Origin: Morinoia aosen
Taxonomy: Eukaryota > Arthropoda > Malacostraca > Amphipoda > Talitridae
Reading direction: 5' to 3'
Assembly (NCBI GenBank): GCA_030386875.1
Contig: CM059575.1
Location: forward strand, 48,328,859 to 48,392,858
Length of the DNA stretch: 64,000 nt
Part shown: positions 34,688 through 42,900 of the stretch, in pieces
Position numbering within the stretch: position 1 is the first letter of the stretch
How the letters are laid out: each line of letters begins with the position of its first letter
Position numbers and translations under genes: made by a program
The notes under the pieces: generated by a model
The model's input: only the letters and a program-made list of their open reading frames with translations
Told to the model about the DNA's origin: nothing
Database searches by the model: none

Positions 34688-36073
34688 CTGGATACTCCGA
34701 ACTCCGAGGAGCAGTATGTCATGATATTCTGCAGACTTTGATGAGCGAGTGCGAATGTGTTTCTGGCTTTGCTTGCCAACATGTTTATGGTCAAGATACA
34801 GACATCTTCAATTGAAGCTTGTGATGGCGTGGAACAATCACGTTCTCAAAATATAGGTGAATATAGGTGTAGTGCAGCCGCCTCCACCTGCTGGTGATCA
34901 AGTTGTAGAAAATGACGAGGAATTTGAAGACGATGTGCTTGACAAAGATTACCTTCCAGAATAGGTGGGTGGAGAAATTGAAATGCATGATAATGAAGTA
35001 GGTGAAGAAGCGGAAAAGACATTGGCTAAGATATTCACGAAAATGACTGGTGGCGAAGAAGGGAAAATGTGTCATTAGGTCCTCACTCAATTCTCTCAGG
35101 CAACATGGATGAGCATTTAGGCAGAGCTTATTCGAAAATTTTCAGTTGTTCTTCTATTTAAGATATTTTCAACCACGTGACGAAGCAAACTAATTCATAC
35201 TCTAACAAAGATAAGAATGTTCAGAACTTCAGAGTGGTGGAAGATGAGATGAGGAAGTTCTTAGGATTATTGCTCATCAGCAGGTATCACTATATGCCGT
35301 CTGAAAATGATTATTGGTCCACGGCAGAAGATCTTGAGATACCGATTATTCCCCGATCTAAGAGGAGAGATCGATTCAAGCTCATTAATTAGGATTTCCA
35401 TCTGGCGATAGCAGTGCGCAGTATAATTCAAAGATGGTCAAGATCTTACTATTGTTGAACATGCTGGAAGAAAATTAGCAACGATATGGGGTATTCCATG
35501 AGCTTTTGAGCATCGATGAGTCTATGATTCTGTGCCATGGCAACTTTAGCTCGAAACAATAATTGCCGGGAAGATTCAAGATGTGGATGATGTGCAGTGC
35601 TGATGGTTTCCCGGACACCTTCTTAATCTACTGTGGAAAGGATGATAATAGAAACCTGCGGATCCCAAGTGATGAAAAATAAGCATGAGCCCGTGGAAAA
35701 CAAAGAATCTCATGCAGTTTGTTGACAATTTTTTTCAGCAGTACTGCTCTGTTGGAAGAGCTGGGGAAAAATTTATTTGAAGCTAGTGAAACTCTCATAG
35801 ATAACAGTACAGGGAACTGTCCTCTAATAACAATGAAACTTTGCGAGAAAAAACAGAGAGGTTACTATGATTTTAGATCAAACGGCATAGTTTTATTTAC
35901 TCGCTGGAACGACAACAGTGTTGGGATGGTTGCTAGTAACTATTATGGTATTTCACCGATCCCAGAAGTAAAATGGTGGGGAATGATCAAGGGAAAAGAC
36001 CATTCATGGTCCACATGTATAACCGTGTTATGGGTGGAGTAATCATGTGCGACCAAATAATGTCCCCCTACAG

Positions 36074-36082
36074 GCCCAAGCT
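36074..36082. repeat. Target-site duplication (left), GCCCAAGCT
   Basis: Nine bases before the 3.24-kb insertion match GCCCAGGCT at 39322-39330 with one difference. Together with uninterrupted piggyBac coding on both sides, this identifies them as a target-site duplication. Confidence 0.8.
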
Positions 36083-36789
36083 GTGCTCGTGTCAATAGCT
36101 AGCCGCTGTCCCCGTTCTTTCACCGCCACCATTACGCACACCACCACCCCTTCACCTGTAATGCATGCCAGATACCGCCATTCTACAGATCATTCTCTAT
36201 CGATACTTCATGTTTATTTGGATAAGAAGACAAAACTATTACGAATTATACAATTATATATTGCTGTCGTAATTTTCGTCGTGACAAGTTGTGAGAATTT
36301 CATTGGTATTTCATTCATTTGCGGGAACATAAATAATAGATATCAACAGAACACACACATTTGAAGACTGTTGTTGGTTTTGTGCCACAATATTTCGTCG
36401 TCAAGCAAAGTGAACAACATTTATATGTAAGAAGCTGTCGTTACTTAGGTATTACATAATTAAGTTAATAATGCAATGTTCCTATAACTCCTACCGGTTT
36501 CAAAATTTTAGACTCAGCTTCAACCCCGGATGACCTCAGAATTTTAGAGTCTTTGCATATCTTCAAGCGAAACCCTCATTTGAACAATATGGACAGTTCG
36601 TGCCCTTTGCAATTAGTGAATAGGTAGATTCCTCGTCAGAACCAGGCTTATTTCATTTCATACTTATGTGTCACATGTATTCTTTTTGTGCTTCTGTATT
36701 GTATTTGTTGTTTTTGTCCGTCTCATACTTTGTATTTCTACTTTCATGATATATTTATAGTACGTACAATTTATTCTTCTTTGAGGAGA

Positions 36790-38690
36790 TCATCCCAGGC
36801 CCTGCCACGCCCCTGTCGCTACGATGGTCCTAAAATTTTATGGCGCTACGGAGAATAAATCTCCCCAGGGGAGGGGGGGAAGGGGACCCAAATTTTTCAC
36901 TGGTATAGATATTTCAAGATGTATCTCCTGATTCAGTATTGATGCTAGAACAAAAACCAAGACAGTTTTAGAATCCTTGGAACCTGCCTAACAAACTCAA
37001 TTGGGCTTTTTTCCATTTCCCATTTGTTCTCTTTTTATATGGAGTTGAAATGGGCTCGAAAATTAAAAATTTTACTCCCCTTCATTTATCAACCCCATAT
37101 AAGAAGAGAACAAATGGGAAATGGAAAAAAGCCCATTTGAGTTTGCCCATGTGTCACATGTATTCTTTTTGTGCTTCTGTATTATATTTTTTCGTTTTTG
37201 TCCCCGTCTCATACCTTGTATTTTTACTTTCATGATATATTTATAGTACATACCATTCATTTTACTTTGAGGAGATCATCCCAGGCCCCTGCCACGCCCC
37301 TGTCGCTCCGATGGTCATTTCTCATGTTTTTGTTGGAAAAGGACCCTTAGGTGGTGGACTATTCGGTCCTAAAATTTTATGGCGCTAAGGAACAAATGCT
37401 AGATGCTAGAAAGAATAGTCAGGAAAACTTTGTAGTGAATTACGATTTTGTTGCTTTTTTGAGCCATTATCTTATTTACTTATCAAAATGCTCGAATATT
37501 GTGCTATTACATGAGATTCATTAGCTTATTGAGGCTTAGTACTGTCGAATTTGTCAATGTGCCAGAGGATAAGGTTTATATCTGGATATCATATTTTTAT
37601 TATATTCTGTACCCCGAAGTGTTCACATGTTCCCATTTTGGGAACATCATAGAAAACAGTTAAGAAATGGGCTCGAAAATTAAAAAATTTTACTCCCCTT
37701 CATTTTTCAACCCCATATAAAAAGAGAACAAATGGGAAATTAAAAAAAGGCCATTTTCAGTTTGTTAGGAATGTTCCAAGGATTCTAAAACTGTATTGGT
37801 TTTTGTTCTAGCATCAAAACTGAATGAGGAGATACATCTTGAAATATCGATACCAGTGAAATATCAATACCTAAAAACCAATATGTCAATTTTTTTCAAA
37901 AACTATGGCATAAATCAGAAAAAAATGAATGGAATCAATTGTGTTTCTTTTCAAAGGTTACATTTCATATTCAAATTTCATAAGAATCAGACTGCAAATA
38001 GAAAATTTCATTTAAAAACGAAAAAAAAATTTGGGGGCAATCACAATTTACAGTGTGAATATGAAGTTATGTACGGAAATTATCGAAATAAAATTAAAAC
38101 TGCATTCCTTTACATAAATTGTTCATTATATTACACTTCAACCAAAAAATTTGTAATGGCTTGAATCCATAAAAAATAACTTCCAACATTCAAAATGGGA
38201 CTCCTCATTGAGTTTTGATGCTAGAACAAAACCATAGACATTTTTAGAATCCTTAAAACATTTCTAACAAACTCAAATGGGCTTTTTTCAAATTCGAATT
38301 CTTTGATAAAATATATAGCTCTAAACCCAAAAAATTGTTGTTGATTTTAGAAATTTCGAAAAATTTGAAAAAATTGAAAAAATTTGAATTTGAAAAAAAA
38401 ACGACTGGGTTTGTTAGAAATGTTCCTTGGATTCTAAGACTGTCTTTGGTTTGTTCTAGCATCAAAATTCGAGGACGAGTCCCATTTTAAATTATAGATA
38501 AAAATATACCAAAAACTCATTTTATGTTAAAAAAAACTAAGGCCTAAATCGAAAAAATGACATGAGTAAAAAAAGGTTTACCTTCGCAAAATACATATAC
38601 TGGCCAATTTTTAATCGAATCGGACGGAAAAAGTCGAAAGCCGGGATGATCTCCTTGATCATCCCTTGATATAAAACCGGGATGATCTCC
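36790..38690. mobile_element. TTAA-family element, rearranged copy
   Basis: Two left-end-like blocks start TTGAGGAGATCATCCCAGGC (36781 and 37268), each after a duplicated stretch of about 130 bp (36668-36790 and 37150-37270). The far end carries GGGATGATCTCCTTGATC twice (38640-38695). The internal motif occurs at 36961, 37777, 38237 and 38425 in alternating orientation. The sequence TCCTAAAATTTTATGGCGCTA is shared, give or take a base, with 58576-58596. Two end-like tracts at each side suggest nested or tandemly rearranged copies. Confidence 0.65.
37405..37675 (+). repeat. Second copy of the piggyBac 3' end
   Basis: About 265 bp from AGAATAGTCAGGAAAACTTT to GAAAACAGTTAAG is roughly 93-95% identical by eye to 39729-39982, the tail of the piggyBac copy that this very element interrupted. 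It includes the GTTCCCATTTTGGGAAC palindrome and the closing CAGTTAA. Confidence 0.8.
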
Positions 38691-39321
38691 TTGATCTTAT
38701 ATTTCAAACGTAATTCTTTTGTTTTTCGTTTGAACTGATGAAGAAGCTGGACTCCTCTTATCCAAATAAACATGTACTGTAGTTTCGATTGAGAATGATC
38801 TGTAGAATGGCGGTATCTGGCATGCATCACAGGTGCAGGAGTGGTGGTGGTGATAGAATGGGACAGCAACTAGATTTTGCACAAACTAGCATTATCTGCG
38901 TATAGTTATCAGACAGCAGGTATCAATTATATCAACTTAATTATGTAATAACTAGGTAACGACAGCTTTTATATATAAATATTGTTCACTTTGCTTGACG
39001 ACGAACTATTGTGACACAAAACGAGCAACAGTCTTTAAATGTGCGGGTTCAGCTGATATCTATTATTTAAATTCCTGCAAAAGAATGAAATACTAATGAA
39101 ATTCTCACAACTTATCATGATGAAAATTATGACAGCAATATATAATTGTACAATTCGTAACAGTTTTGTCTTCTTATCCAAATTAACATGTAGTTTCGAT
39201 AGAGAATGAACTGTGGAATGGCGGTATCTGGCATGCATCACAGGTGCAAGGGTGTGGTGGTGGTGTGTGTGATGGTGGCGGTGATAGAATGGGGGCAGCG
39301 GCTAGCTATTGACACGAGCGC

Positions 39322-39330
39322 GCCCAGGCT
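39322..39330. repeat. Target-site duplication (right), GCCCAGGCT
   Basis: Matches 36074-36082 at 8 of 9 bases and directly follows the end of the inserted element. Confidence 0.8.
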
Positions 39331-39690
39331 ACGATCCCGAAAGTGGTGGTGGAATATATTTTCGCAGTTATTGAACTTGTCCGTGGTTGCCAGCTCGAGA
39401 TTCTACCGGCATTTTAATCCGAACTCAAAGCAGACTCACAAAAACTTCAGAAGAAACAAAGCTCATACTTGAGTAATGGTAAAACACAAGAGGAATCGCC
39501 ACGGAGGCCCTGCATCATCAGTACCGGAGGCTGTTCGCTATGACGACGTGAACCGTTCCCTCGAGACTTCAAGTTAATTAAGGAAGATGCAACATGTGCG
39601 GCAAGAATACGTGTCTGAAATGCGTCAAATGCGATAAGCGGTTGCACTAGATGTGGTTTGAGAATTATCATAATTGATAACTGTATCAAC
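39331..39690 (+). pseudogene. piggyBac transposase pseudogene (copy 2), C-terminal part
   Basis: Immediately after the duplicated target, the coding sequence resumes with RSRKWWWNIFSQLLNLSVV, the K-W-W...F block that follows MGGVD and Y-R in piggyBac transposases. A basic linker and VRYDDVNRSLE come next. 39590-39665 encodes CNMCGKNTCLKCVKCDKRLH, the C-terminal cysteine-rich zinc-binding domain. A stop and then MWFENYHN follow, matching the usual C-F-x-x-Y-H ending. Frame changes at about 39470 and 39580 and an internal stop make it non-functional. Confidence 0.9.
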
Positions 39691-39981
39691 ATGAAAAGTT
39701 TCTACGATTAGCTGAGTGAGAGGAGGAAAGAATAGTCAGGAAAGCTTTATGGTGAATTACGATTTTGTTGCTTGTTTTGTGCCATAATCTTATTTACTTA
39801 TCAAAATGCTCGAATATTGTGCTATTACATGAGATTCATTAGCTTATAGAGGCTTAGTACTGTTGAATTTGTCAATGTGCCAAAGGATAAGGTTTATATC
39901 TGGATATCATATTTTTGTTATATTCTGTACCCCGAAGTGTTCACACGTTCCCATTTTGGGAACATCGTAGAAAACAGTTAA
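39691..39981 (+). mobile_element. piggyBac copy 2, 3' terminal region
   Basis: The non-coding tail of the element contains GTTCCCATTTTGGGAAC (39947-39963) and ends CAG before TTAA (39978-39981), the target tetranucleotide of piggyBac elements. Removing the 3.24-kb insertion and one target copy leaves an element of about 2.1 kb from 34650, a normal piggyBac size. Confidence 0.7.
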
Positions 39982-42900
39982 GAAAACGGATTTTTTATTC
40001 TGTATGGTTTTATTTGCACTCAGTAGACTCGATACGCATAACTTCTATGAATGTTTTGTTTGAATTCAATTTATTTCTTGGCGCCGTCAACAAAGGTTTT
40101 TATAAAAATCTTACTCCAACGTAAAATACCAACACCAATCTGTGATAAACTTTCAAAGGAAATATTCAAGACACCGTAACCAGGTATATGTCACATTCTA
40201 ACTAATGTTTTGCTGCGAATCCAGGGCCAAGTGATGATGTCTAAGTAAATCGTTCTAGTTTATGAATACATGTCTAAATTTTTACCTCGTGAGGGAAATC
40301 CTGAATCAATAATCAATGTCTATTTTAAGCATTTAAAAAATTGTTCATTTGCCAGGGGGAAGCTCACAAGTCAATTTTCCTGTTCCTTTTGAAAAACCCT
40401 TCTATATACTGCATCATAGGGATACTATTCAGGAATAATAAGTTTGCTGGATGTGCATATGTATGAAGCTTCCCCTGCCCCTAAGCTTAAAAATGTATTA
40501 CCTTCCTCAAATGGAACGAAATAAATGGCAGCTCTGTAAAGACCCTTATCAACGTTGGCTTCCGCGCAATCAAAATCAACTTATTGTATAGTCTTGCTCA
40601 CCCAGAGCCATGCTTCGTGTCTTCGAATTTGCAGGTGCTGTCGAAAATTAATATTATTTCGTGAATAATAAAATTACAGAAATAATATCTTAGTACCTAT
40701 CAAACACTTTCATAACAGCAATGTAATCAATTTAAAATAGAATACGTACGTCACTTGTTTGGCATTGATCATTTGCATTGGTCTTGTAGCGGGGCAAACT
40801 TTCTGCACATTACCTTCTCACATTACCTTCTGCAATAACTGTGAAAATAAATTTATTATTCATGTCATAAGAAAGGTTCTTTGTCTGTGCAGAAGTTGAG
40901 CAGTATAAAAATTTGAATTCCCAGCCCACGAATTGAAGAATAAGGATCATCCTGATGAGTTTTGAAAACCACTAAAGTTACCATTTATCTGAAAGTGGTA
41001 TTTTTTCTCCACGGCAAAAGTAAGCGTGCGATTTATAATTTATTTAACACTATAGTTTAACTCATAACAGCCATTAATCCACCCTTCTTGATGAATTTAC
41101 GCAAGCTCATATCACCTAACAGTTGTGTCTTGAAGAAGATACCTGATTATTAATTATGAATAAGTACACACGCATGCGCTCATGCTGTGAAACGCTTACC
41201 TGATCAAATTTTATTGTGCAACTTTTCATTTCGAGATGTAAAACTTATTGATGAGCATTTTCACAAGTGTATTTTTCTTGAATTGACTTTTGTGGCTTAA
41301 GCACTCAATAGGTAGTGTAGTGAGAAGAAATATTGTTCTCAAAGCAAGTGTTGTCACATTGGTGAGTTCATTGACATTATTTGCAATAAACTAAAATTAT
41401 AACCTGGGTATGCCCATAAAATCGCTCATGGTCGAAAAACGATCAAGGACAATAGTCATGAGTGTATTTTAATCCTCGGATCACGGGCGCGGGCGTCGGA
41501 TCGACGTCGTGTCCACCTCGTTTCGAACGCGGATAAGGTTGACTCAGTCAGTTAAGAGGACCGTACACTTTTGCACTTTTTTCTTTATTTATGAACCAAT
41601 GCTTATCAACTTCGACAGACTGATCAAATGTATGATAAAAATAGGGGTCACCATAAGAGAAATTTTTTATTTGCTTCATAGAAAATGAGTTGTGGCAAAG
41701 AAAGCGGAATACAAGGGGGTACGGAAAACCCTACTCCTACCACAAATTTCAGTCCATAGATATGAAACAAGTGTCATTTGAAAAAAAACACTTGGGCCAT
41801 AGCCCCGAGATGTGAATGTTTGAAACTTGTTTGGTTTTGGAGATATTTTGAATGAAAAAGCCAATTTAGAAAAAATTATAAAACGCTCGATTTATCTCTC
41901 TATGACGGCTTCCCGTTTTTTACCCAATTCGAAAATCTCAAATTCCTACCTCGGGGCTGTGGCCCTATTATTCTTCTGTAAAATACATTATCTCCACTCT
42001 CTACATCAAAATTTGTAAGAGTAGCATTTCGAATGAGGAAAGTTTTCGGTTTCCACAGAAGCAAAAAAACAAAATGACATTTTTACAATAAAACACTTCG
42101 TTTGTTTGTAAAAAAAATTTATGTTGTTGTTTTGTATTTATGATTGGAAAAGTTTTAAAGGATTTGTTATTCAACAAGTAAAAAAGTTTTGTAAAAAAAA
42201 ATTTACGAAAAAACTGCTCCCCCTCACCACCCGTCCACCCCCATTGTGAGCGTTCTATATATTGCGTGCACGCCTGTAAATTTTTTGTGGATGTTCAGCA
42301 CATGTATAACTTCAATTCAAAGCAAATAATTGTTTTAACATTTGGCCAAAAAAAAATGTACGATGCCCTTAACACTTTGGCTGCGACTACTAGATATTAA
42401 GTTCAATGTCAAAATCAAATTTAAAGTCAATTGTAGAAAACTATTTTGAAAATAGCAAGCATGAACTGGAGCGTGCCTTCCTTTACCTTTGATATAGTAT
42501 TAATGCAAATTGAGTGTGCAACTTCTTGTCGGTCAGTAGCATTATGAAAATTGCCTCCGTGCACCACTGGTGGAGCAAGTCGCAGTCAAAGTTTTAGGAG
42601 ACGGTGCTGCTATTAAGTGACGGTGCCTAAATAGTTTACCTTATAAATTCTGCATCCCCTAATTTCAGAAACTCTGCGTCCATTATCATGGTACGATATG
42701 CCTACTAAGCGATGAGGAAACGGAAAAAAAACATTTCACCTGTATTTTAGCAATTGGTGTATAAAAGCCAGAACGGAAACCTGAGAACTGTCCATTTTTG
42801 ACTGATGTTGTCATAAATAAACCTTCCCTAATGGAATTGAAAATACCTATGAATGAGGCACACAATGTGTTCAATTCTTTTTCTTCGCTTCACCTCTTAC

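Follow-up and report, generated by a model that had tools for sequence, protein, structure and literature searches.

The 64,000-nucleotide stretch of Morinoia aosen DNA analyzed here (hereafter the window; C20:48328859-48392858 in a 2.0-Gb assembly of 29 contigs) contains a 3,239-bp element with long inverted arms, located at 36083-39321 in window coordinates, that interrupts a decayed piggyBac transposon. We are highly confident that it is a non-autonomous member of a Mutator-like element (MULE) family, which inserted with a 9-bp duplication and decayed in place; most likely, it was later patched by repair. Assignment to this class, proposed in a first-pass annotation made from the letters of the window, is supported by the ends, the 9-bp duplication at this site and throughout the family, the empty site, the target motif, and transposase-bearing relatives whose ends are built alike. 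In line with an arthropod host, the genome has 115 matches to the cuticle-protein family PF00379, which marks arthropods; 14 control genomes had none, a weak control because prokaryotes are among them. The element and its ends comprise the following features.

36083-39321, no strand assigned: element, most probably a non-autonomous MULE (arms, 9-bp duplications, empty paralogue site, family duplications, MULE transposase in relatives).
36074-36082, plus strand: left target-site duplication GCCCAAGCT, single in empty paralogues.
39322-39330, plus strand: right target-site duplication GCCCAGGCT, with CCNGG at positions 3-7.
36083-36470, plus strand: left terminal inverted repeat (TIR) arm, aligned to the right arm.
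38930-39321, minus strand: right TIR arm, aligned to the left arm.
38753-38862, minus strand: additional, incomplete right-arm copy on the inner side (direct repeats D5, D16, and D18; inverted repeats I4 and I14).

The boundaries claimed in the first-pass annotation hold to the base. The two copies of the duplication are identical at 8 of 9 positions, and the terminal bases, GTGCTCGTGTCAATAGC on the left and GCGCTCGTGTCAATAGC on the right when read as the reverse complement, have a single mismatch at the second base (GT versus GC). The arms have the claimed length of ~390 bp and are 90.6% alike (349 of 385 aligned bases match between 36085-36470 and 38930-39319). Chance repeats were rejected as an explanation, given 385 aligned arm bases at this identity and many genomic copies. 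Inner arm copies are likewise found in three other copies of the family (L013, L024, and L026) and in a 7,965-bp relative on C11.

The DNA on both sides of the element belongs to one decayed piggyBac, and both flanks align to piggyBac paralogues:

35719-36073, plus strand: piggyBac transposase remnant left of the insertion (PF13843; 90% identity to the paralogue at C20:48112933-48113298).
39331-40080, plus strand: right-hand remnant of the piggyBac (identical to paralogue L035 at 674 of 744 aligned bases).

Positions 35719-36039 match PF13843 (DDE_Tnp_1_7; E = 2.1e-4, 21.1 bits, slightly below the Pfam cut-off of 22.4) and are predicted to be part of the piggyBac catalytic domain. A 48-residue stretch of the right flank gave no match in the Pfam scan; its DNA still aligns to piggyBac paralogues. 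There are 15 other piggyBac places in the genome, and 7 of them were fetched across the site (L035, L036, L037, L040, L044, L045, and L047). In all seven, the element is absent and the flanks are contiguous, as expected if the element inserted into a piggyBac with coding sequence on both sides, as had been claimed. The empty-site 9-mer is GCCCAAGCT in L036, L040, and L047 and GCCCAGGCT in L035 and L045; in L037 and L044 the 9-mer is diverged. In L035, the nearest paralogue (same contig, 250 kb from the window site), gaps (14 bases) adjoin it on the left. piggyBac transposition makes TTAA duplications. A miniature inverted-repeat transposable element internal to piggyBac was also considered as a candidate and rejected: the termini, the 9-bp duplication, and the MULE link all contradict it.

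Elsewhere in the genome, seven piggyBac relatives lie in one stretch of C5 (about 8.4-15.9 Mb). In at least four of them, the same 3′ region is interrupted by 0.8-1.0 kb, which suggests a shared insertion followed by duplication.

Related copies were collected with a 401-base left-arm query, which had 642 candidate genomic places; 40 of these were scored and gave 48 matches. The common family ends are GCGCTCGTGTCAATAG, and the other copies thus have the same termini as the window element. In a first set of 25 two-ended copies, 15 had duplications with at least 7/9 identities. Three further copies extended the set to 28, in which 18 have 9-bp duplications with no more than two mismatches (≥7/9), and 8 of these are perfect. 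A match at 8 bp was seen in 1 of 28 copies and at 4-7 or 10-13 bp in none, with two mismatches tolerated from 8 bp up, one at 6-7 bp, and none at 4-5 bp. The claimed 9-bp length is thereby confirmed across the family. These counts leave out copies whose second end is missing or not resolved (L009, L012, L016, L022, L028, and the pair L062/L063) as well as a transposase-bearing copy on C3, whose right end has no matching duplication. Because L020/L027 and L031/L054-L055 share flanks and represent segmental duplicates, the 25 copies reduce to 23 distinct ones. True left/right pairs from these 23 reached at least 7/9 identities in 15 cases (5 perfect), versus 39 of 506 (none perfect) when the duplications of different copies were cross-paired. 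A shifted-offset control, which is blind to 8-bp duplications, gave 0 of 25 matches at each of six shifts.

The second of the pairs that share flanks consists of 4.3-kb family copies on C9, 0.8 Mb apart (L031 at 12.98 Mb and L054/L055 at 13.80 Mb). They have identical 9-mers and near-identical flanks and are, as far as these flanks tell, a segmental duplication.

The duplications have a common core. By the base counts, the family appears to have a sharp preference for CC(C/G)GG at duplication positions 3-7. In the left flanks of the 25 two-ended copies, these positions are C in 24, C in 20, C or G in 22, G in 18, and G in 19; in the right flanks, the counts are 22, 25, 21, 20, and 22, respectively. 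A genome-wide scan for exact termini, which required a non-G base twelve places outward, found 38 ends with 34 distinct flanks; this set and the set of 25 have copies in common. Among the 34 flanks, 15 have CCSGG, 17 have CCNGG, and 31 agree at four or more of the five positions. The background frequency of CCSGG, 0.0006 per base in 196 kb from twenty loci (38% GC, with the elements counted in), leads to an expectation of 0.02 versus the 15 observed, and 10,000 shuffles of the flanks gave CCNGG 0.5 times on average and 4 times at most. The right duplication in the window (GC-CC-A-GG-CT) fits CCNGG, not CCSGG. In principle, the motif could reflect survival bias (GC-rich, unmethylated, or genic DNA) or be a part of the element ends rather than target choice, and a GC-rich palindromic word could be mimicked by an extended inverted repeat. 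However, the pattern is position-exact while the outer positions hold mixed bases, the sample is 38% GC, the word is repeated directly, not inverted, in matching copies, and GCCCAGGCT or GCCCAAGCT is present without the element in five of the seven empty piggyBac paralogues. We therefore consider an origin of the motif other than target choice improbable.

Transposase-bearing copies at C21:117.06 Mb and C9:81.86 Mb (L069, L070, and L072) lie in or at a 31-bp tandem repeat that contains TACCCGGCA, a word that fits CCSGG. Homing into this minisatellite is possible.

The search for relatives that encode a MULE transposase, suggested in the first-pass annotation, succeeded in the sense that remnants of such a gene were found in copies with sister, not identical, ends. 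The genome contains 87 matches to PF10551 (MULE); for two of them, the distance inward from an arm place is 3.4 kb. The 7,965-bp element at the C11 locus (L029) has 346-bp arms at 97% identity and the sister end GCGCTAGTGTCAACAGC, and its duplication, GCCCCGGCT, is perfect. Minus-strand transposase pieces of this copy and of the C3 copy (L030) match PF10551 above the cut-off, and both copies are broken. MULE transposases carry a zinc finger (SWIM, FLYWCH, or another type). In the C3 copy, CTCPDGSTGRACKHQVA (L030:1452-2141, minus strand) has by eye a SWIM-like CxC..CxH pattern, a candidate zinc-finger motif; Pfam reported nothing for this piece. A genome search with a 126-residue transposase piece gave 150 matches from 182 candidates. 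When the C11 arm was used as a query, a transposase match was present within 10 kb of 10 of the 40 arm rows. These rows represent seven loci (C11, C17, C21:117M, C3, and three on C9), which are the seven best-matching arm loci, and at each of them the gene is found 2.4-4.3 kb inward, with an orientation consistent with the layout of C11. If the three loci on C9 are copies of each other, which is possible, five independent loci remain. The C17 copy has a perfect 9-bp duplication, AGCCGGGGC.

MULEs are recognized here by duplications of 8-11 bp, typically 9 bp; by long TIRs; and by a MULE (DDE) transposase in an autonomous or once-autonomous member that has the same ends. In the family studied, 18 of 28 copies have the 9-bp duplication (8/9 identical in the window), the arms are ~390 bp long (346 bp in the C11 relative), and the transposase is found in relatives with sister ends (L029 and L030; seven of seven closest-arm loci). 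The long arms, inner repeats, and internal hairpins are also Foldback-like, and duplications of 8-9 bp are made by some superfamilies besides MULE. The element could accordingly belong to another superfamily (hAT, P, Merlin, or a Foldback of unknown transposase), with MULE genes located near the arms by chance or nesting. Against this stands the presence of the same transposase at a similar inward distance at all seven closest-arm loci (possibly five independent), when ~0.03 coincidences are expected for 40 arms, 150 matches, 2 Gb, and 10 kb; moreover, a perfect 9-bp duplication flanks both the C11 copy and the C17 copy. We judge membership in another superfamily to be very improbable. As to Foldback elements, which have arms of short tandem repeats, the arms in the window are unique sequence with one extra partial right copy, and no short tandem array was seen among the listed direct and inverted repeats of the element, no dedicated tandem-repeat search having been run. 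Overall, we infer that the transposase of these relatives moves the window element, which is classed as a non-autonomous relative because its own end subtype was not found together with a transposase.

The interior of the element is composite, and the following features can be distinguished.

36083-36784, plus strand: left 702 bp, common to transposase-bearing relatives (86% identity over 707 aligned columns to the C11 copy L029 and the C3 copy L030).
36785-38690, no strand assigned: nested high-copy repeat, rearranged (ends GGAGATCATCCC / GGGATGATCTCC; the C11 relative is uninterrupted here).
36992-37145, no strand assigned: hairpin in the nested repeat (I8; 57-bp arms, 40-bp loop, 95% complementary).
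37149-37316, plus strand: second copy of 36666-36829 (154 of 164 aligned bases identical; D3, D8, and D12, spacing 483-487).
37409-37667, plus strand: piggyBac 3′ fragment of 259 bp, apparently captured (248 of 259 bases identical to 39726-39985; sister to it in a tree).
39726-39985, plus strand: likely source of this fragment, piggyBac 3′ region outside the element (alignment, tree).

The claim that the element has no visible transposase holds for the window copy: eight open reading frames out of 19 listed were scanned, all of them within or overlapping the element and one starting in the left flank, and none had a Pfam match at E ≤ 0.1. No coding function of its own is visible in the element. 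Its interior is not mere filler, as it contains the nested repeat and the piggyBac patch. The nested repeat is flanked on both sides by TTGA (36781-36784 and 38691-38694), and the C11 relative is continuous from the equivalent of 36784 to that of 38691, without the repeat. Its rearrangement in the window was judged against three other copies (L064, L065, and L066). The local duplication of 36666-36829 as 37149-37316 spans the junction of the element backbone and the nested repeat, and the foot of the hairpin (37145) adjoins the break point of this duplication.

In its own right, the nested repeat, seen in the window and in L064, L065, and L066, is very abundant and hairpin-rich, has GGAGATCATCCC ends, and shows a TTGA duplication in the window. 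Its right part (window 37750-38660) has 7,870 candidate genomic places, 40 of which were scored.

The 259-bp patch was compared with 12 of 34 other patch places, the ten best-scoring included; these come from a search with 43 candidates, 40 of which were scored. L047 was left out of the patch tree as it has no match to the patch region. The patch is identical to the outer copy (39726-39985) at 248 of 259 positions, to the nearest paralogue at 235 of 258, and to the other 11 rows at 84-88%. In the tree, the patch and the outer copy are sisters (support 89/88). They agree against the nearest paralogue at 17 sites: 12 paralogue-only changes, 3 ambiguous sites, and 2 clean shared states, one of which is a single-base insertion absent from all 12 other rows. 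At the right junction of the patch, where GTTAAGAAA meets TGGGCTCG, piggyBac GTTAAGAAAACGG and repeat TTGAAATGGGCTCG overlap by GAAA. The left junction consists of a short filler; its final bases, GATGCTAGAA, are a word found in the nested repeat. The patch and the adjoining duplication are similarly diverged (11/259 versus 16/259, the latter being 10/164 + 6/95; p = 0.43), and the two pooled (27/518) are less diverged than the arms (36/385; p = 0.018). Dating by arm divergence (9.4% versus 4.2% in the patch) is weak evidence only, since the arms may already differ before insertion, and the 9.4% figure is no firm clock. Most simply, the patch would have been captured in place, after insertion, from the adjoining piggyBac, and one or two postinsertion repair episodes, with the element's own left part and the flank as templates, are the simplest account of the patch and the duplication together.

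Alternatively, the patch could have been brought in by the element from elsewhere or result from a plain segmental duplication. It agrees with L035 against the outer copy at four sites, three of which are apparently outer-copy-only changes and one (column 157) a real conflict, and the source may be a close paralogue that was lost or is among the candidates left unscored. The sister position and the two clean shared derived states argue for the local copy instead, as does the similar divergence of the patch and the adjoining duplication, lower when pooled than that of the arms. In addition, the 38 arm places outside the window (from the 40 scored of 642 arm candidates) are all more than 195 kb away from every one of the 34 other patch places. 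An origin of the patch other than capture in place is therefore unlikely, but it retains appreciable weight.

The history of the element can be outlined as follows. A MULE transposase produced by a relative elsewhere in the genome would bind the long inverted-repeat ends and excise the element, which would then insert at a near-palindromic CC(C/G)GG core, a stagger of 9 bp yielding the 9-bp duplication. The element subsequently decayed in place, and its interior now contains the high-copy repeat. Most likely, a later break at or beside the hairpin of the nested repeat was repaired by a copying process that switched templates. This repair would duplicate ~480 bp of the left interior of the element and add 259 bp of the flanking piggyBac; the path is proposed on the basis of the junctions and the tree.

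Several observations weigh against this class assignment and history. In 10 of the 28 two-ended copies, no match was found at 9 bp; two pairs represent segmental duplicates, and some copies may be recombinants. One of the three copies added to reach 28, at C21:117.06 Mb, sits in the 31-bp tandem repeat and is uninformative for the duplication. No transposase was found in any copy with the arm subtype of the window element (GCTCG); the copies that do bear one have GCGCTAGTG, a sister sequence, at their ends, and their first 702 bp are 86% identical to those of the window element. The other scanned transposase pieces (first-aspartate, N-terminal, and zinc-finger) had no Pfam match, for the remaining 30 of 40 arm rows none of the 45 transposase matches compared (out of 150) lay within 10 kb, and the right end of the C3 copy shows no matching duplication. 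As to the patch, the support in the tree is only moderate, and the four sites shared with L035 rather than with the local copy, one of them in real conflict, point the other way. Last, arms can differ before insertion, which bears on any timing drawn from them.

The comparisons with known systems given below draw on parts of each cited paper. The first-pass annotation regarded MULEs as less often reported in arthropods. This is outdated: 322 types of MULE, from 222 species of arthropods, are catalogued in a 2026 survey (PMC13359780). The family in the window resembles the surveyed elements in host group, TIR length (13-1193 bp in the survey), full length (1.4-10 kb), and G/C-rich first bases; a target motif is not described in those parts of the survey. 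Muta1 and other MULEs of Aedes aegypti (PMC5225508) are also similar in having long inverted repeats, 8-9-bp duplications, and many non-autonomous derivatives with varied interiors. In contrast to the CCSGG core found here, Muta1 has no apparent insertion-site preference in that account, and the A. aegypti elements have 9-15-bp subterminal tandem repeats where the window element has a whole extra partial arm. The Tm1 Mutator/Foldback elements of root-knot nematodes (PMC3169594) likewise combine composite inverted repeats and 9-bp duplications with a rare copy bearing a MULE transposase and non-autonomous copies, but their duplications are described as lacking a clear consensus. MuTAnT of Medicago (PMC4486113) is a MULE family with 9-bp duplications and a real target preference, which is for TA microsatellites. 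MULEs are thus well known in arthropods, and what is noteworthy here is the central target word and the apparently self-patched interior.

Maize Mu elements (PMC2774946) have long TIRs, 9-bp duplications, and a consensus around the target, as does the window family. The maize consensus, SW::SWNNNNNWS::WS, lies at the edges and leaves the center free, while the window family varies little at the center (positions 3-7) and freely at the edges. A MULE with a CCSGG target was not found in the open-licence literature on MULE target preference, which is no proof of absence. On balance, we lean toward a model in which the MULE transposase of this family reads the center of the target, a palindromic CC(C/G)GG, and cuts two bases outside it on each side, giving duplications of the form NN-CCSGG-NN, while long-armed copies may patch themselves at breaks from adjacent DNA. 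If true, this central-word reading is the reverse of the edge preference of maize Mu, and MULE target choice would be testable by swapping transposases. A nearly fixed central pentamer offers a natural contrast, to Muta1 and Tm1 as well as to maize Mu, for how MULE transposases choose their targets.

The patched interior is most similar to that of single-copy animal Pack-TIRs (PMC8277862), for which postinsertion capture between TIRs from within a few kilobases, breakpoint microhomology, and a gap-filling model with a bias to nearby sources are described. Here, in contrast, the captured piece would be the host piggyBac itself, within a nested repeat. The element does not fall under the definition of Pack-TIRs or Pack-MULEs because the captured DNA, although it has a recognizable parent, is transposon sequence (piggyBac). 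The window copy nevertheless presents a single-locus case of apparent uptake from an element's own flank, in which source, patch, and empty site are all readable, and gap filling, as a model for how Pack-TIRs arise, predicts this pattern.

The genome's strongest MULE match, at C21:40584193 in a 1,039-amino acid open frame, was rejected as a partner of the window element, as no DNA similarity to the C11 or window element was found; inverted repeats were not found in the 7 kb fetched around it. This frame (L034:2399-5515; C21:40583398-40586514) joins MULE, Ulp1-type peptidase C48, and PHD finger domains. A PHD finger is listed for the Rehavkus group in the part of PMC6446971 used here, and the C21 frame may represent a Rehavkus-type transposase or a tamed gene.

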